Source: Streptococcus ovis DSM 16829
GTDB lineage: Bacteria; Bacillota; Bacilli; Lactobacillales; Streptococcaceae
NCBI RefSeq assembly: GCF_000380125.1
Contig: NZ_KB904574.1
Span: 209,419 to 265,895, forward strand
Direction: 5' to 3'
DNA length: 56,477 nt
In this document: in pieces, positions 48,875-56,477 of the stretch
Position numbering within the stretch: the stretch's first letter is position 1
How the letters are laid out: each line of letters starts with the position of its first letter
The notes under the pieces: model-generated
Database searches by the model: none
What the model saw: the letters and a program-made list of their open reading frames with translations, nothing else
Told to the model about the DNA's origin: nothing
Program-made: the position numbers and the translations under genes

Positions 48875-48914
48875 ATCTATAATTTACATAATATATGTTA
48901 TGTAAATTATAGAT
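48875..48914. repeat. 17-bp inverted repeat at the 3' end of xerS
   Basis: The arms at 48875-48891 and 48898-48914 are perfect inverted copies around TATATG. The right arm covers the xerS stop codon. The inner 24 bp, TTTACATAA-N6-TTATGTAAA, also occurs after topA at 34010-34033. Confidence 0.85.
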
Positions 48915-49977
48915 TATCTAATGCGTTTTTCTGCTCATCATTGACAATATGGGTATAGAGGTCTGTAACTTGCGTGTTGGCGTGCCCTAGTTGATGACTG
49001 ACCAGCACTTGTGATTTGGTCGCATCATAGAGGCGTGTTGCGAGAGTGTGTCGTAATTTATGGGGTGTCACACGAATCTTGAAGTCAGCAGAGTACTTGG
49101 CGACCATTTTTTCGATAGAAGAAGCGTCAATACGGTTTGGGACACCTCGATACTCTGTTAAAAAGAAGGCTAAGTCTGTTTTTTCAGCCTTGTAGCGTTG
49201 TTGGCGAATGGCAGCATAAGCTTCGAGATAGGGCTTTGCAAAGCCAGCAACATTGACAGAGTCCCGTTTTCCGCCCTTACGAGTGACCTCAATGATCATC
49301 ATTTTGAGATTAACATCCTTCAAATCAAGATTCACAGCTTCAGAAAGGCGGACACCAGAAGCCAGTAGCAAAGCTAAAATGGCTAAATCACGTTCTTTAT
49401 TTTTTCGGAAAGATGATTTGGCACGATTGGAAAGTTTGTTCTCATATTCACAATCTATATACTCTAAAAAATCCATGGTCTCATCGCCTAAAAAGAGTTT
49501 TTGCTTGATGTTTTCTGCACGAGCCGCCAGTGTCTCACGTTTTTTCTGAGTGGAGACCTTTTTCATAACATTTCGGTAGAAATAAGGTTCTCCTTGGTCG
49601 TTTTCGACCTCCTCAGTCAGATATTTGTACAGGCTGGATAAAGCCGATAAGGTTCGGTTAATCGTTGTCTGAGAGACACCGTTCTGGGTTGTATTGGCAT
49701 TGAGCAAAGGTCGTTCCCGTAAATAAAGAATAAAGGCCTCCATGTCTTTTTTTGTTAAAGTTTCTAGTCTATCTAAAGGAATATCGGCTAATTGATGAAC
49801 AGATACCAGATCAGCATCAATCAGCCATTCAAAGAAACGTCGATATTCCTTCAAGTATTCGTACAAGGTTGTAAAACTATAGGGAACAGCCAATTTTGAT
49901 TGATAGTAGTCCAGGACATACCAGGGCATCACAGATTTTAATTCTTCAATTTTTTCCAATAATAATTCACGTCGCAT
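48907..49977 (-). CDS. xerS: Tyrosine recombinase XerS
   Basis: The single chromosome-dimer-resolution recombinase of streptococci and lactococci, which acts at dif_SL. The 356-residue protein has the whole catalytic set: R210 in [10 protein letters not shown]306 and R309 in [10 protein letters not shown]332 in LGHANTQ and the nucleophile Y341 in TDLYTHI. The start at 49977 gives exactly the family length and N-terminus ([14 protein letters not shown]) with AGGAGA seven bases upstream; 13 extra in-frame codons upstream are not used. It is divergent from its dif site, whose edge supplies its -35 box. Confidence 0.97.
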
Positions 49978-50006
49978 CGTATATTCTCCTAAATTTCTAT
50001 ACAAGT

Positions 50007-50035
50007 AGTATAACACGTATATAGATATATTTCAA
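50007..50035 (-). promoter_or_regulatory. xerS promoter, with -35 inside dif
   Basis: On the minus strand TTGAAA (50035-50030), 17 bases, TATACT (50012-50007). The -35 hexamer is the terminal six bases of the dif site, so XerS bound to dif should hinder its own transcription. Confidence 0.7.
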
Positions 50036-50060
50036 GAAAATTATAGTTTTTCGGAAAGAT
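50030..50060 (-). other. dif_SL chromosome dimer resolution site
   Basis: A 31-bp sequence that, read on the minus strand, starts ATCTTTCCGAAAAACTATAA and ends TTTTCTTGAAA. This corresponds to the known streptococcal/lactococcal dif_SL site, which lies next to xerS. It marks the replication terminus, and gene orientation in the window changes here. The match to the published site is from memory. Confidence 0.9.
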
Positions 50061-50070
50061 GATAAAGGAC

Positions 50071-50229
50071 ATTTTTCTACAATAACCAAAAAAATTTTTC
50101 TAGGATAAATCAGCTAAAAATGTACTTAATTCAAGGCTAAACTGGAATTTCTAGATACCTTCATTTTTCTATAAAAGTGTACTTTATTAACGACAAAACT
50201 GGAAATTTTTTCAAAAGTACATTTTTCTA
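50071..50229. repeat. Short repeats in the non-coding element end next to dif
   Basis: ATTTTTCTA occurs four times (50071, 50094, 50163, 50221). Two degenerate units of about 57 bp are seen: TGTACTT at 50121 and 50178, AAACTGGAA at 50139 and 50196, ATTTTTCTA at 50163 and 50221. The second unit ends in AAGTACA, the inverse of TGTACTT. They could be arm-type recombinase-binding sites. Confidence 0.65.
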
Positions 50230-50292
50230 TTTAATTTGATACCTAAAACTATGTTTTCGGACATAGAGATCCCCCCATTTTTTACATAAATT

Positions 50293-50323
50293 TAAAACAG
50301 ATCTATATTTTAGACCTGTTTTA
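50293..50323 (-). terminator. Hairpin after the zinc-ribbon gene
   Basis: TAAAACAG (50293-50300) and CTGTTTTA (50316-50323) are inverted arms with further pairing TCTA/TAGA inside. They abut the stop codon of the minus-strand gene. Confidence 0.6.
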
Positions 50324-52177
50324 TTATTTCTTAAATTGAACAAAATGAGCTCGTTTTCTTCTAAATCCTTTACATATCGAACATGGCTCTTGATTTCTTA
50401 TCTCACACATTATTCTATTTTTAATAGATGCCTTATAGCGATGTTCGGGATTATTGTTGCAAATCCACCATACTTGCTGTCTGCTATTTTCTGTATGATT
50501 TTCTGGATTTCCAAGCAACATATTGTTTAGATAATCCCATTCTTTCAATAAATGAGGGTATGTTTCGCTCATGTTATTTTCTACATAAGGAACATCTAAT
50601 TTATTACAACTGGGACAGACATTATCGATACTTACCGTATCAGTTAAGTATCTGTTCAGTACTACATTGATACTTTCTCTGTAGCTTATTTGACATTTAT
50701 TACAGCGCCAACTGTAGTTTCTATTGCTTTTGTAATCTAGGATAACAGATTCTGTAGTAATATTGTTTTCTGTATCCCAGATTGTTTTCAATTCAGGATA
50801 AAGATCAAATAAGGTATTTACACCCTTTAAAGGCAACTCATTATTACAATACGGACAGCAACTTTGAATTTCTCTTCGAATTGGTATAGAGCAAAGATAG
50901 TCATTTTTACAATCTGAGCAATTCCACCAATATTTCTTAGTTTCTACATTTGTGAGGGCTAGAAACATAGGTATTTTATTTTTTTCACTCCACTCTTTGA
51001 TAAGAATGGGTTCGTTATGCAGAGAATTATTTTTAAATACACTGGTTGACCATTCACAGAAATTTGGGCAGGATTGAACAAATACGTTTTTAGAGTCTGT
51101 TCGAGTAATCATTTCTTTTGGACTGCATTCAAATGAAATATCGCAACAAGGACACATCCAAGTAATTTCTTCAGTAGATTGGTGCCAATAATCTGTTAGA
51201 CTTTCCAGGTTATTTGGATGTAAAAATTGTTTTAGATATGGATGGGTTTTATCTAGTGTATTAAAGCCTCTCAACATTTCTTTGTTGCTACAAAATGGGC
51301 AACTATGGTTAGTCCTTTCATAGACTTTACATGAATAGGAACCCTTGCATTTTGAACAACTCCATATTACAGGCATATCTGAAAGCGCATCAACTTGATT
51401 AGGTGATATGTTATTCTCTTCTGACCATTCATCAATGTAGTCTGGTGTTAAAAAATCCAATGGTGCATTTGTTGATGAATTCTGTAATGGGTTATTAAAA
51501 CTTGCATTGCATTCAGTACAATAACTGCCGTTTCGCCTTATTCTAGCGAACAAACTATCAATTGGCATTGTGAAATCATAACGACACTTGTCACAGTTCC
51601 AATGCATAGGTTTTGTAACATTTGTGTTCAGCCTTAATTCATTGAATTGAATATCATTCAACTCATCGTTATATATTTGTCCTAGATTCGGATAGACTTC
51701 AGTATAGTAATTTTGATACGATAACTCATTACAACCAATATGGAATATTTCCTTTTCCTCAGACTGAAATAATCTTAAATTTATAGCTGCATCTCTCCAG
51801 GAGCTATGACAAGTTGGACATTTAAGTTGGAATATATGTCTAGAGTTAAATCTTTGATTCTGTAGTAAGTGACTAATCGTTTCTCTATCCTCACGATGAT
51901 AATTTATATAATTCTCAAAGTCAGGAAACATAGCTTTGATGCTATTTATCTCACTAATAAGAACTTTTCCAAGATTGCAACAAGGGCAAAAATCGGGAAT
52001 CTTCAGACTTATTTTATAAATGTCATTGATTTTAGCCTCCCATTGATACGAACAGCTGGGGCATATCCAGTTTGCATAATGCCGACTATTTACTTTTGTA
52101 CTTTCTAAATCCAATATATTCAAGTTCAAATTCCAGTATAACAGCATACCTGGCACTTCTTTTATTGTTTTTATCAT
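50324..52177 (-). CDS. Protein of eight zinc-ribbon repeats (DUF4379-like)
   Basis: A 617-residue protein built of about eight copies of a 65-80-residue unit. Each unit has a W-x-C-x-x-C (or close) pair, an aromatic/hydrophobic strand, then a C-x-x-C pair before a CN or CS turn; several are linked by an EW-x3-N segment (IKEWSEKN, IDEWSEEN). This matches the probable zinc-ribbon domain often found in phage and mobile-element proteins, sometimes fused to Vsr-like nucleases; no nuclease domain is seen here. The eighth unit is degenerate (CNNNPEH). It is the last gene of the recombinase operon. Function unknown; DNA or RNA binding is likely. Confidence 0.75.
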   Translation of the reverse strand: MIKTIKEVPGMLLYWNLNLNILDLESTKVNSRHYANWICPSCSYQWEAKINDIYKISLKIPDFCPCCNLGKVLISEINSIKAMFPDFENYINYHREDRETISHLLQNQRFNSRHIFQLKCPTCHSSWRDAAINLRLFQSEEKEIFHIGCNELSYQNYYTEVYPNLGQIYNDELNDIQFNELRLNTNVTKPMHWNCDKCRYDFTMPIDSLFARIRRNGSYCTECNASFNNPLQNSSTNAPLDFLTPDYIDEWSEENNISPNQVDALSDMPVIWSCSKCKGSYSCKVYERTNHSCPFCSNKEMLRGFNTLDKTHPYLKQFLHPNNLESLTDYWHQSTEEITWMCPCCDISFECSPKEMITRTDSKNVFVQSCPNFCEWSTSVFKNNSLHNEPILIKEWSEKNKIPMFLALTNVETKKYWWNCSDCKNDYLCSIPIRREIQSCCPYCNNELPLKGVNTLFDLYPELKTIWDTENNITTESVILDYKSNRNYSWRCNKCQISYRESINVVLNRYLTDTVSIDNVCPSCNKLDVPYVENNMSETYPHLLKEWDYLNNMLLGNPENHTENSRQQVWWICNNNPEHRYKASIKNRIMCEIRNQEPCSICKGFRRKRAHFVQFKK

Positions 52178-52187
52178 ACTTCATCTC

Positions 52188-52889
52188 TCAATAATTTGTT
52201 TTGCTATCTAGTAAATTTTTTATATTTACAATTTTATTTTTAGCTCCATCATTGTTGGTTGATTTTGATTGAAAATCAATTTTTGAATCTGCTGTAATAA
52301 TCTGACTTGCTAGATAATCATCAGAAATGATTCTATTCTCTGATTTCAAAAGACCCTCTGCTTTTAATAGTTCGTTAGCAATTTCAGGATAGACAGTAGT
52401 TTTGATGATACTTTTAAGTGAGCTGATTTCATCCATTAATACCTTGCACTCTTCAATATTACTTGATGTCAATTCAAGTTGATCCTTTAACTTTTTATTC
52501 TCAATTACCAGAACTTCTGCTTCATCTTTATACTTTAAAGCCACTTCAACAATCCCTTTATAGTATTTGTTCAGTTCAACTAGTGCTGAACGGATTGCCC
52601 TGGGTGTTCGATTGGTCATCATAAAACTGTCTATATCTAAGGTCTTGTAAGTAATGATAGTTTGAAATTCTTCATCCTCTGCCTCAGCTTTTCGTTTCTC
52701 GATAGTTAATCGAAAATTTTTATTTCGCCTCAAGGTAGTATCGGTAACTTCGGGAAAACCTGTAACTCTTAAGTAATCACCGAATTTTGGTAATTTGAAC
52801 AAAGAAATATCATTTGAACACTCATTTAAGACATATTCCTCGAATTTTTCGAATAAATCTTCATCAGAAATTAGTCTTCTTCTAGCCAT
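52188..52889 (-). CDS. Coiled-coil protein in the position of TnpC
   Basis: A 233-residue charged protein. The first 75 residues look like a small DNA-binding head (ARRRLISDEDLF, then TDTTLRRNKNFRLTIEKRK); residues about 105-175 form a heptad-rich coiled coil. Tn554-type elements carry a small coiled-coil accessory protein, TnpC, after their two recombinases, and this gene has that place, overlapping the upstream recombinase by eight bases. The sequence itself does not prove kinship. Confidence 0.55.
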   Translation of the reverse strand: MARRRLISDEDLFEKFEEYVLNECSNDISLFKLPKFGDYLRVTGFPEVTDTTLRRNKNFRLTIEKRKAEAEDEEFQTIITYKTLDIDSFMMTNRTPRAIRSALVELNKYYKGIVEVALKYKDEAEVLVIENKKLKDQLELTSSNIEECKVLMDEISSLKSIIKTTVYPEIANELLKAEGLLKSENRIISDDYLASQIITADSKIDFQSKSTNNDGAKNKIVNIKNLLDSKTNY

Positions 52890-54543
52890 TTAACCCCTCC
52901 GCTTTAAACATTTGTTTCGCACCTAAATACTCTTGATACGAGTGGCTTACAGACGATAGCTTCAAAAGTGCCTCGCCAATATCTTCCATATTCCCCTTGC
53001 CTTGTCTAACTCGTTTTACAGCCTCATCAACAATAAGGGCTTCTTGGTCAACTGACTTCTTGTAAGTCTTATCCATTGAAAAATACTCTTTTCCAGCCTT
53101 GCGATAGAACGGACAACTCGTACAAGCTCCAAGTTCTGCATGATTACTGATAACTTTTAGACAATCTGAGTAATCACCCGAAGCAAACCTCGGTGAGTAG
53201 CACCGTCCTTTGTTTTCTAATTGAACAAACGCCTTTCCTACTGTATATCTAGGTTGTGCCTTACTAATCTCATAAGTTGTTTGTGAACTAGTCAGCTTAC
53301 GAAATACTTGATAGCTTCGACATTCTATGAATTGACTAAGATTTGAAAAATAATGTGACGAAGTTGCTACGTTATCATGGCCTGCAAGCAACATTGCAGT
53401 TACTGGGCTAGCCCCTTCAGCAATTAGGTTGATCATTGCAATATGTCTAGTGTCTCCGATATGGATAAAGTTGATTTCCTTATCTTCCAATCGAGATATG
53501 GGATCGATGTAATGTACTTGATAGCCATATTTCACCTCAATAATCTCATTAAAGAAATACTTTAATATGGTGTTGATATTTTGATACGTTAAAAAGCGGT
53601 TATTGATACCTGTCTTTCTATTCCAACGCTGATAATGCGTATCGGTTACAAAAAGTGTATTTAATTTTGTTGACTCTAAATCTTGTGTTAATTTTAAGTA
53701 ATGTTGGATTGATTGAGCAAGATTAGTGGGAATCTCATAGGTCGTTAAGTAATAGTCTTCAGTAATTTTATGTGAAATCGCCTTCTCTCTTCCTTTTAGG
53801 TTATTTCTTCTAAGAGTTAGATAATACTTACCATTCTTCTCAGATAGACAGTCTCTTTGAGTCAATAAAAATTCCCGTGGTCGTAAGGGAACTACTGCTG
53901 TAATTTGCCACCAAAGATAAATTGGGTAGTAAAACAACCTTTCAGTTTCAGGGAGGGGTTGAGACCAATAGTCAGTTAGGATATCGTTAAATGCAAAATA
54001 GGACTGAAATTGGGCTAGTTGACGCTGTTGCTTTGATTTTGATTGATATTGCAATGCAATCACATGATCTAGTTGTTCCAAGAATTGATTCATTTGTGAA
54101 TCTTCAACGCAAGGTAGACTTGCAAAAAAGTCAAAACATAAGTTGGGAGCTGATAATTTGATATTTGCCATATCCGATACAACATTTTGCTTTGTTGTTT
54201 TTACTAATCTTTTTACATCTCGTAAAAAGATTTGCAAAGTGGTCAGGACATGCTGTTCCATAGATAAGACTACATATGACTTCAAATATTCAATAAATGA
54301 ATGGTAAGTAAAACCTGTCAATGTCTCAAAATATCGTTCATATTGAAATCTGTTAACATTGAAGAGAAAATTTACATTAGCATATTCATTAGTTAATAAC
54401 CATTTTCCTGATTCAAAATCAGGAGTAAGAATGATATCTTTTTCATAATAGTCCTTAAAATACACATGTGCCTTATCAACCATGACTTGATCGATTTCGG
54501 TAATACTTTTAATGGTTTGAAATAGCTTTGCTTCTGTAATCAA
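52882..54543 (-). CDS. Tyrosine-type recombinase/integrase
   Basis: A 553-residue site-specific recombinase. The catalytic domain (about 205-410) has R221 in VVPLRPREF, H361 and R366-H367 in HIGDTRH, H389 in LLAGHDN and nucleophile Y398 in SSHYFS. After it comes an unusual C-terminal region with a cysteine cluster (GRCYS, DCLKV, ACTSCPFY), probably zinc-binding, as in large Tn554-type recombinases. The N-terminal 200 residues would hold the core-binding domain. It overlaps the upstream gene by four bases. Confidence 0.85.
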   Translation of the reverse strand: MITEAKLFQTIKSITEIDQVMVDKAHVYFKDYYEKDIILTPDFESGKWLLTNEYANVNFLFNVNRFQYERYFETLTGFTYHSFIEYLKSYVVLSMEQHVLTTLQIFLRDVKRLVKTTKQNVVSDMANIKLSAPNLCFDFFASLPCVEDSQMNQFLEQLDHVIALQYQSKSKQQRQLAQFQSYFAFNDILTDYWSQPLPETERLFYYPIYLWWQITAVVPLRPREFLLTQRDCLSEKNGKYYLTLRRNNLKGREKAISHKITEDYYLTTYEIPTNLAQSIQHYLKLTQDLESTKLNTLFVTDTHYQRWNRKTGINNRFLTYQNINTILKYFFNEIIEVKYGYQVHYIDPISRLEDKEINFIHIGDTRHIAMINLIAEGASPVTAMLLAGHDNVATSSHYFSNLSQFIECRSYQVFRKLTSSQTTYEISKAQPRYTVGKAFVQLENKGRCYSPRFASGDYSDCLKVISNHAELGACTSCPFYRKAGKEYFSMDKTYKKSVDQEALIVDEAVKRVRQGKGNMEDIGEALLKLSSVSHSYQEYLGAKQMFKAEGLNG

Positions 54544-56393
54544 TGGATTAACTCCTTTATTATTTCTTCATAGTCATTCAAGACTTCTTCACCGTATTGC
54601 TCAGAAAGCGACTGTAGCATTTCAGTCAAACAGGGCTTCAACTGCAATTCCAATATTGCTTTTATCTTTCCTTTTTCTAAATCATCTATTACTTCGTTAT
54701 AACGATGGTTCAAACGATTAAATTCTCCGATGAGAAGCAAAAGCGTTGATTTCGTCTGCAATTCATATTGACAACCTACACAATGCTGCTTGTCGATGTA
54801 GGGGCAAAGTTTACCAAGTGCAGATAACAAGCACATGCTTTCGGTCTGTTTGGAAAATGCTTCTCCATTACCGATTCTATGGCAAACTGTCAATAATTGT
54901 TGAGGACTCAATTGCTCTTGAATAACTGTTTTTAGCGCATTCTGCGAGCGAGAATCAGCTCTTATACTAATTTCTAAAGTTTTTTCTATTTCCGCAGGTG
55001 TCAGATCTAATTCTTTAATCATCCGTGTTTGTTGACTTGGAGTCAGCTCTTTGTACTTACCTCTCGTTACAATCGTCAATAACATTGATGGAACCATTGA
55101 TAGTACACCTCTCTCAAATAGTTCTTTTGCAACCATTTCAGGCTGCACTTGTCCTAATTGAGCATCCTTTAAGTATGTTGACGTCGTTTGAGCAAATTCA
55201 TCGTAAGAGCCTTTGTGACTTCTAGCTAAGGCTGCTAAGAAATACCCTTTTATGTTGAGTTCAGATTTCTCCTCTATGACATCATCGGCGAGCATCGCGA
55301 CAGCTTGGAGATATGATTTATTTGCTGAACGGCTACTAAAGTTTCTTTCTAAAAATAAGCTACCAATTTCTTCTCCCATGTATCTATGAATTCGTTCATA
55401 GTCGGATATCTTCCTGATTAGAGGTGACTCAGAAGCTTGTTTGTTTGCTATTTGATAATGTGCCTCACAGATAGCCAGGAGTGTTCCAATCAGCACCTGA
55501 CAGCTCTCAGGCACATGGAATTTCAATTGGCTGACATTTGAAGCTCTCTTAGTCTTGTTTGGAGTAATGTTGAGATATGTCAATCTTGTGGTAATACTAA
55601 GGAGTGTTCGCCTTGCCTCACCAGTAGTCCAAGTACCATTCTTGACTGCCCTTAGTATGTCGTTAGGAACACGAGATAATTTGGGGTGTCCAATTCTTTC
55701 CAAATCTGTAGTTCTAAAGGCACATATAAAATGGAGTGCAAGATAAAGCCAAGTGTCAGCGTAATCTTTAGATTGGGCTGCAAGGTAAAGCATGTTATTT
55801 TTTTGAATATAGTCATCATTAAAAAGATAAAACATCAATTGTAAGTAGTCATTCAACTCGTATGCTCCGTTTTTATCTTCAAGCGTATAACGATTCGTCA
55901 TAACATAAGAGTTTCTGTAATGTGTCACACCTTTCCCTAATAACCAATCAGAAAATGATATCAACTCTTTACCATGAGACTTGCTCAGAGCTTCGGTTGC
56001 GTATTCGATGAGTTTTTCAAGGTTTCGATCATTATATAGAAAAATGTCTTTCTCCAAGTAATAACTAAGAAAATCCATCAGATAAAATTGACTAGCTTCT
56101 TCAAGATTTTGAATAGTTACAAATTCTTTAAAATATTGGTGTGACATGGGAAATTTTTGTTTAAAAATTGCCTCCATCGATTCAATTCCAGGCTCAGTTG
56201 TCAAAAAGCTAACTATTCGCTTCTTTAAAAGCTGAGTATCATGATCTTTAATACACTGATTATCTTTATTTATCCCAATATAAAACCACTTATTATCTAA
56301 TAAATATTGACTTATCTTCTCTCTCATTTTTGGAGTATCTGCATTTAACTCTATTAAAAGAGCTTCAAGAAATCTTTTTAAATCGACTGCCAC
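54540..56393 (-). CDS. Large recombinase-like protein with degenerate tyrosine-recombinase core
   Basis: A 617-residue protein. A region at about 210-410 can be aligned by eye to a tyrosine recombinase: R227 in CAFRTTDLERI, R355 in SSRSANKS, H393 in RSHKGS and Y407 in TTSTYL, but the usual HxxR box is not clear. A C-terminal cysteine cluster (C530, C538, C541) parallels that of the next gene. The GTG start overlaps the upstream stop (TAGTG). It may be a partner recombinase that is active, partly active or structural; identification is moderate. Confidence 0.6.
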   Translation of the reverse strand: MAVDLKRFLEALLIELNADTPKMREKISQYLLDNKWFYIGINKDNQCIKDHDTQLLKKRIVSFLTTEPGIESMEAIFKQKFPMSHQYFKEFVTIQNLEEASQFYLMDFLSYYLEKDIFLYNDRNLEKLIEYATEALSKSHGKELISFSDWLLGKGVTHYRNSYVMTNRYTLEDKNGAYELNDYLQLMFYLFNDDYIQKNNMLYLAAQSKDYADTWLYLALHFICAFRTTDLERIGHPKLSRVPNDILRAVKNGTWTTGEARRTLLSITTRLTYLNITPNKTKRASNVSQLKFHVPESCQVLIGTLLAICEAHYQIANKQASESPLIRKISDYERIHRYMGEEIGSLFLERNFSSRSANKSYLQAVAMLADDVIEEKSELNIKGYFLAALARSHKGSYDEFAQTTSTYLKDAQLGQVQPEMVAKELFERGVLSMVPSMLLTIVTRGKYKELTPSQQTRMIKELDLTPAEIEKTLEISIRADSRSQNALKTVIQEQLSPQQLLTVCHRIGNGEAFSKQTESMCLLSALGKLCPYIDKQHCVGCQYELQTKSTLLLLIGEFNRLNHRYNEVIDDLEKGKIKAILELQLKPCLTEMLQSLSEQYGEEVLNDYEEIIKELIH

Positions 56394-56477
56394 TACTCTC
56401 CTCCTCCAAATAAATCATTTGCTCTCCAACTAAGATAATCAAACACACCGTCATTAACTTGTCTGTACTGTTTAGCT
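56393..56477 (-). CDS. C-terminal end of an upstream element gene (cut by the window)
   Basis: The last 27 codons of a minus-strand gene, ending DYLSWRANDLFGGGE and a TAG that shares its G with the next gene's GTG start. The tight overlap places it in the same operon, probably as the first recombinase of a trio, but the tail is too short to identify. Confidence 0.6.
   Translation of the reverse strand, partial: AKQYRQVNDGVFDYLSWRANDLFGGGE

Follow-up and report, generated by a model that had tools for sequence, protein, structure and literature searches.

Insertion distance from streptococcal dif tracks the module number of a zinc-ribbon protein in a candidate tyrosine-recombinase element

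What determines the place at which an element settles beside the dif site of a streptococcal chromosome? This question is raised by a 56,477-nucleotide stretch of Streptococcus ovis DSM 16829 (contig NZ_KB904574.1, positions 209,419 to 265,895; called the window hereafter), in which five minus-strand genes, here named A to E, lie next to dif_SL. The 31-bp dif site (50030..50060, located by pattern search) adjoins the host gene xerS (48907..50016, minus strand), which encodes the chromosome dimer resolution recombinase (NCBIfam XerS equivalog, 553 bits at a cut-off of 267). Beyond dif, 15 bp of host DNA reach up to the insertion point (50061..50075, assigned by position relative to the element end), followed by a 6-nt coupling sequence (50076..50081, minus strand TGTAGA), and this flank differs at the other copy of the element in the genome. 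The right end of the element (RE; 50082..50240, minus strand) is matched by our RE model and consists of a terminal A/T tract plus GGTTAT with iterons upstream; its inner limit is approximate, and identity with the second copy begins exactly at 50082. Gene E (50324..52177, minus strand), the proposed ruler or target selector, encodes a zinc-ribbon module protein of 617 amino acids, and its stop codon is located 263 bp from dif. On the basis of sequence comparison we consider it quite probable that this unit belongs to an autonomous tyrosine-recombinase element of the Tn554/SE/GInt type (SE, strand-biased integrative element) with the core A-B-C-D-E, in which the module count of E would set the position of strand exchange relative to dif. 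It also appears likely that E is a ruler encoded by repeat number, one module corresponding to about one DNA turn, so that gain or loss of a module would shift the insertion by some 10 bp from dif.

The original prediction had described E as an eight-repeat zinc-ribbon protein. We found a zinc-ribbon array (Pfam DUF4379, E-value 1.3e-50, 169.8 bits vs. a gathering cut-off of 24.5), but instead of eight repeats the protein of the window involves 13 CxxC motifs in six Pfam stretches. Alignment of the E proteins indicated constant N- and C-terminal parts of about 500 and 70 residues, respectively, between which 0, 1, 2 or 3 extra modules are placed, each of about 70 amino acids with two CxxC motifs. 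The protein of the window carries zero extra modules.

Module number and insertion distance were compared in a sample of 284 Streptococcus genomes (one per species, many of them fragmented assemblies), and the distance was taken as the number of base pairs between the terminal GTTA of the RE and the 31-bp dif. The correlation set comprised 19 genomes whose own RE is the one nearest to dif, which correspond to 16 distinct module/coupling events. Without extra modules (13 CxxC motifs) the RE is separated from dif by 20-22 bp (10 genomes). One extra module (15 motifs) goes along with 30 bp (genome G053 only), two extra modules (17 motifs; 18 are counted in G265, where one motif overlaps another) with 39-41 bp (6 genomes) and three extra modules (19 motifs) with 50-51 bp (2 genomes). 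The classes do not overlap, and over the 16 events a correlation coefficient of 0.998 and a slope of 9.91 bp per module were calculated. When the proteins were grouped into nine E types (our own grouping), the slope was 9.7. The chance of a perfect separation amounted to 8.3e-7 by event and to 2e-4 by the nine E types. The most direct comparison is that of the loci L110 and L040, whose E proteins share 87% identity and differ by one module; here, the distances are 50 and 39 bp.

The distances were also evaluated for all element ends at dif, for which the dif neighbourhoods of 283 of the 284 genomes were read (G038 was left out). Within 110 bp upstream of dif an RE profile matched in 79 genomes at E-values up to 1 and in 73 at E-values up to 0.001. 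Curation by the terminal motif, in which 9 of 90 motifs were dropped (no iteron or hidden Markov model support) and motifs less than 15 bp from dif were skipped, yielded 81 REs in 77 genomes; these include all 20 operon genomes and 57 without the operon. The distances fall into classes of 20-23, 30, 37-41, 46-51, 56-60 bp and beyond, with one RE at 26 bp. They are periodic with a best period of 9.1 bp (R = 0.66; 53 clusters from the 81 REs, 77 of 283 loci), and none of 20,000 jittered sets was as strongly periodic. Helical phasing alone was considered for the spacing of about 9-10 bp and rejected, since the module count of E explains the classes better. The earlier idea that dif serves as a safe harbour for the element has given way to a measured distance from it.

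The mobility of the unit is supported by its copies, ends and junctions. A second copy on another contig of the S. ovis genome is 100% identical over 6596 bp; the identity begins at window position 50082, 21 bp outside dif, the flanks beyond differ, and both contigs break off at one and the same position within A. This second copy (L004, contig G000:C22, 4983-8345) adjoins open reading frames resembling by eye ParA, a relaxase and a MobC-like protein, and its neighbourhood is probably, to judge from these genes, a mobilizable element that could carry the element between cells. The RE, which adjoins E, involves TTTAGTTTTCACTTAAATAAAGTACATTTT-like iterons and a terminal A/T tract closed by GTTA and one further base. 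On the other side of the cargo, upstream of A, is the left end (LE, AAAACTAAAAGTTTATGTACAATTGACTTAAC), so that the cargo is enclosed between LE and A. Inspected by eye, LE AAAACTAAAAG and the TTTTTAGTTAT-like ends of RE are short imperfect inverted repeats. The start of LE, AAAACTAAAAGTTTA, resembles AAAACTATAATTTTC of dif at 12 of 15 positions by eye, a similarity that may arise by chance where DNA is A/T-rich. The stretch bounded by LE and RE measures 13.9-27.8 kb in 14 loci, some of which may include stacked units. Since the cargo between LE and A differs among islands and older LE and RE sequences are present further out, the islands grow by repeated insertion.

Empty sites were reconstructed for 14 elements by joining the flank left of LE to the flank right of RE plus 6 nt, and these joins were searched for in the dif loci. 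Gapless joins were obtained for three elements, namely L051 (in G149 and G205), L040 (G205, G149 and G063) and L046 (G212). The comparison with relatives lacking the element, which had been proposed as a check, therefore revealed junctions, and these genes do not simply sit next to dif in element-free relatives. Wherever the flanks allow a clean reading, the element is inserted precisely, with a coupling sequence of 6 nt. In G071, TTCTCA flanks one LE (L037) on its left and is found again to the right of two REs, that of another copy (L043) and that at dif. To judge from the contig ends, L037 contains the LE of the dif copy of G071, and this is one donor-recipient pair only.

Several observations weigh against these conclusions. 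Four of the 19 E genes in the correlation set are broken (without them n = 15 and r = 0.998), and the one-module class consists of the single genome G053, in which E is frameshifted. Two genomes, G203 and G234, were excluded, another RE intervening, and their own REs are 314 and 186 bp away from dif; when the composite of G234 is taken as a whole, its flanks meet around an RE at 40 bp, which is the value expected from its two modules. G071 was left out because the contig breaks off within its E at dif; the other copy encodes a two-module E, and the distance at dif is 39 bp. The best period of 9.1 bp is shorter than the 10.5 bp of B-DNA (R was 0.50 at 10.0 bp and 0.33 at 10.5 bp), and stacking of an insertion in the end of another could explain part of the periodicity. 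As to the junctions, only 3 of 14 elements gave a join that is gapless at the insertion point. At the joins of L039 (G006) and L041 (G215), some 31-33 bp of host DNA are missing in comparison with relatives, perhaps owing to two insertion events or a deletion. The join of L044 differs by 1-4 nt, and that of L042 agrees with insertion into an older RE, no more than one gap being needed close to the junction. For the other seven elements no clean empty-site match was detected in the dif loci, often with an older element on the left; one of them, L043, is not at dif. The off-target copies L004 and L043 are without a dif match, and among four loci with C from outside the genus no E was seen in the two more distant ones (L034, L035).

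In the genomes compared, the geometry of the system (RE facing dif, repeated independent insertions, stacking) and the correlation between module number and distance are nevertheless clear. A, B and C have nearly constant lengths among aligned members, and D varies between 233 and 242 amino acids in Streptococcus without tracking the distance; we therefore infer from the sequences that the distance is set by E and not by a protein inherited together with it. Mechanistically, the constant N-terminal part of E would dock on dif, or on XerS bound to dif, and the variable modules would follow the DNA, each covering about one helical turn. The recombinase complex of A, B, C and D, which carries the circular joint of the element, would be held by the constant C-terminal part, and in this way the module count would set the place of strand exchange. 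The suggestion that the zinc-ribbon protein directs target choice has gained ground, since the module number tracks the insertion distance and E is the best candidate for this role.

Alternatively, the link between module number and distance might be historical, each lineage having settled at one place and having been inherited or recombined together with its flanks, while E does something else. We consider this unlikely. L045-type elements are found in many species with one E type, and some two-module genomes share the coupling CCTTTT, as a common history would suggest. However, differing couplings within a class indicate separate insertions (the 16 events), and the perfect order also holds over nine E types. 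Moreover, the near-identical pair of E proteins that are one module apart differs by 11 bp in distance, and in the same host flank L051 was inserted at 40 bp whereas the older LE junction in L048 is at the 20-bp position (by eye).

It is also improbable that the recombinases pick the site by sequence, recognizing an att core near dif, with E as a regulator or accessory factor. A CCTATA-related sequence does occur repeatedly, both at the 20-bp site and, in some copies, as the coupling, and new insertions are often found in the A/T tract of an older RE. On the other hand, right flanks at equal distance have no sequence in common by eye except the approach to dif, and among the five proteins E tracks the distance, whereas the nearly constant lengths of A, B and C, and the length of D, do not.

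The original prediction had left room for E as a cargo function such as defence, carried by an otherwise ordinary Tn554 relative. E-like arrays do occur apart from recombinase trios, and no E was seen in L034 and L035. Of 55 plasmid records with such arrays six were opened; none of the five annotated ones has the trio (one has a single tyrosine recombinase gene adjoining the array), and the sixth is without annotation. Because such plasmid arrays occur without the trio, E was probably recruited from a wider protein family. Against a passenger role, D is followed by E at every one of the 22 operon loci read in the genus (20 loci plus both copies here) and also in Enterococcus avium and Paenibacillus, D being assigned by position only in the latter. 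In addition, the true cargo is variable and lies on the other side of A, and cargo would leave the relation between module number and distance unaccounted for, so that we regard this explanation as very doubtful. Solved structures with DUF4379-like modules are named mS66 and mt-SAF33, which we take to be proteins of the kinetoplastid mitoribosome, and this resemblance is a hint at nucleic-acid surroundings only. That XerS/dif recombination itself moves the element, as in elements of the IMEX type (integrative mobile elements exploiting Xer), is extremely unlikely: the element abuts dif, but its end is 20-71 bp away from it, it encodes its own recombinases, and 283 of 284 genomes have a single dif.

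Returning to the proposed autonomous element, the five-gene unit A-E is likely its recombination core. Gene D (52188..52889, minus strand; 233 amino acids) is followed by C (52882..54543, minus strand; 553 amino acids, a large tyrosine recombinase), B (54540..56393, minus strand; 617 amino acids) and A (56393..56477, minus strand). The overlap is 8 bp between D and C, 4 bp between C and B and 1 bp between B and A, where the stop codon of A meets the start of B. Thus, the five tightly packed minus-strand genes near dif described before were confirmed, but E and D are separated by 10 bp, whereas the others overlap. Only the 3' end of A (HxxRH...Y) is within the window; the gene, which encodes a protein of about 420 amino acids, continues past it and is cut by the contig end. 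Judged by its residues R208, H350-x-x-R353 and Y386, which are invariant in ten aligned sequences, A is a tyrosine recombinase. C scored below the Pfam cut-off, and its recombinase residues (R221, R366-H367, H389, Y398; invariant in ten aligned sequences) were taken from the alignment. In B, R227, R355, H393 and Y407 do not vary among nine sequences, but the motif spacing is unusual and no profile search supported the protein, so that B is a putative recombinase. The C-terminal cysteine clusters of B (521-541) and C (448-477) are invariant in the alignments. Accordingly, of the two large tyrosine-recombinase-like proteins with C-terminal cysteine clusters that had been predicted, both clusters and the residues of C held, and B was not confirmed by profiles. 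Profile-profile comparison gave no link among A, B and C; it also missed A vs. C although both have recombinase residues, and is thus uninformative. D, which takes the position of Srap, GinD and TnpC in known elements, looks like a coiled-coil protein, as had been claimed, but no Pfam family reached its cut-off. The predicted structures had a mean pLDDT of 45 for B and 33 for E.

To judge from the published descriptions of these systems, the unit resembles SEs, GInts and Tn554. In the available parts of these descriptions, SEs and GInts have a core of recombinase-like genes and a coiled-coil or helix-loop-helix (HLH) protein, and a 6-nt rule applies to SEs and Tn554 (PMC5385486, PMC10214605). 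GInts are similar in that they combine three recombinase-like genes with the gene of a small HLH protein, carry large and variable cargo, have an A/T-rich end and insert with high specificity (PMC5385486). In contrast, the accessible portions of that paper place ginABCD at one end with the cargo after ginD, whereas here E is at the RE and the cargo between LE and A; they give direct imperfect repeats of 10-17 nt as flanks and targets such as an ABC transporter gene or ssb, and describe no fifth zinc-ribbon gene (PMC5385486). For SEs, the order IntA, Tfp (large, no clear motif), IntB and Srap (coiled-coil) appears to parallel A-B-C-D, with fitting sizes and, apart from the uncertain motif of B, fitting motifs; the 6 bp left of the donor go to the right of the new copy, as here in G071, and few sites are preferred (PMC10214605). 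However, in the parts of the SE description at hand, SEs are reported only from Gammaproteobacteria and have four core genes, none of them a zinc-ribbon array, at the left end, whereas here the cargo lies between LE and A; dif targeting or a measured distance are not mentioned there (PMC10214605). SEs are expected to have imperfect inverted repeats of 13-19 bp at their ends, to which the short imperfect repeats recognized here by eye may correspond. Recombination of attL with attR in SEs leaves no empty site (copy-out). The 6-nt rule of SEs and Tn554 without target duplication is followed here by the three gapless joins of 14 and by TTCTCA in G071.

For Tn554, the absence of target duplication is reported in the title of a paper listed among the references of PMC10214605. 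The site of Tn554 is att554, not dif. Tn554 also shares the 6-nt rule and a preferred site, and TnpA, TnpB and TnpC are likely the counterparts of A, C and D; as far as the available text goes, it has three transposition genes, with no Tfp counterpart and none resembling E (PMC10214605). IMEX are tied to dif too, but they enter by Xer recombination at a dif-like site, whereas the present element has its own recombinases and lies tens of bp from dif; the accessible parts of the paper describing XerS/dif_SL and IMEX mention no such element (PMC5357621). Membership in the IMEX, which are bounded by dif and moved by Xer, was rejected because there is one dif in 283 of 284 genomes and the junction is outside dif. 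Likewise, the element was not assigned to the RITs (three recombinases of 315-410 amino acids, 34-bp terminal inverted repeats), since B and C have 617 and 553 amino acids and B is unconfirmed as recombinase; by eye, LE and RE share no long inverted repeat. In Tn7, the zinc-motif protein TnsD binds a conserved host site and insertion takes place at a fixed distance beside it. Tn7 differs in having a DDE transposase and one fixed distance that does not change with repeat number. To our knowledge, target selection by a ruler of variable repeat number has no counterpart among mobile elements.

How widely is this arrangement distributed? C was found in 21 of the 284 genomes, and 20 were counted as operon carriers; G009 was excluded because of its weak C match (28% identity, E-value 6.5e-4). 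Twenty loci were fetched from the 19 genomes other than that of the window, and in 18 of them the operon adjoins xerS and dif with E on the near side; including the window, this applies to 19 of 20 genomes. The two exceptions are both copies from G071, in which dif itself still has an adjoining element end. Contig ends cut L047, L052 and L053 on the A side, and C or E is interrupted in several loci. A mobile element at dif, as originally proposed, agrees with these data, and the homologues are not scattered at random but concentrated at dif. The operons are, however, not always beside dif, since the second copy of the window genome and at least one G071 copy are located elsewhere. E or a piece of it was detected in 38 of 284 genomes.

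The dif pattern, which has a chance expectation of 0 (100 shuffles), was present in all 284 genomes, with two matches in G189 only. These two matches (G189:C4:24-129) are 80 bp apart at a contig start, possibly an assembly effect. Genome-wide, the RE model gave 137 matches in 82 of 284 genomes (scoring was confined to 12 candidates per genome, and a single RE may account for more than one match). It can be seen that 96 of them (76 genomes) are within 450 bp of dif, 12 within 40 kb and 29 elsewhere or on other contigs. An LE and an RE terminus are both present in seven of 40 dif loci; the LE is 284-3009 bp away from dif, and A-D were not among the matches listed for these loci. In a two-strand profile search all 101 hits at E-values up to 0.01 within 500 bp face dif, 98 being upstream on the plus strand and three mirrored on the xerS side (G250, G260, G263; weaker ones in G054 and G261). 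In G054 (L119) the mirrored RE lies between dif and xerS, which starts about 1.2 kb from dif, so that the usual xerS-dif module is split.

Outside the genus, the operon is rare. An order-wide draw of 395 genomes, which included genomes of the genus too, gave one partial match (G540, E-value 1.8e-34). In another collection four loci with C were found, among which E. avium and Paenibacillus have the full unit. In E. avium (L032, 16700-18157) the RE abuts the 3' end of a xerS gene, and 31 CxxC motifs were counted in E; a search of this locus for dif gave no good match. Stacking is suggested there as well by two RE-like termini, which are about 20 bp apart. A search for close C relatives yielded no phage records and three plasmid records with 23-29% identity. 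In a scan of viral contigs, E gave one distant locus and dif none. No published record of such elements at streptococcal dif was among the matches listed, subscription journals being mostly outside the reach of the search.

If E is a ruler, DUF4379 arrays, which form a Pfam family of unknown function, would become DNA-measuring proteins, and the site choice of SE/GInt/Tn554-type elements would become testable. The streptococcal dif/xerS locus is a widespread accretion site that gathers variable cargo (76 of 284 genomes with an RE match within 450 bp). In the one island looked at (L060 7525-19656, L040 59-4821), Pfam assigned HEPN and Abi_2 proteins, ABC transporters, a histidine kinase and an MFS transporter to this cargo. 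The islands of G006, G071, G144, G170, G203, G208, G215 and G234 share a block of about 5.5 kb whose identity across species is 99.5% or higher (for example L060 17301-19900 and L040 1-2948); it carries genes for an MFS and an ABC protein and is perhaps the macrolide-efflux Mega element.

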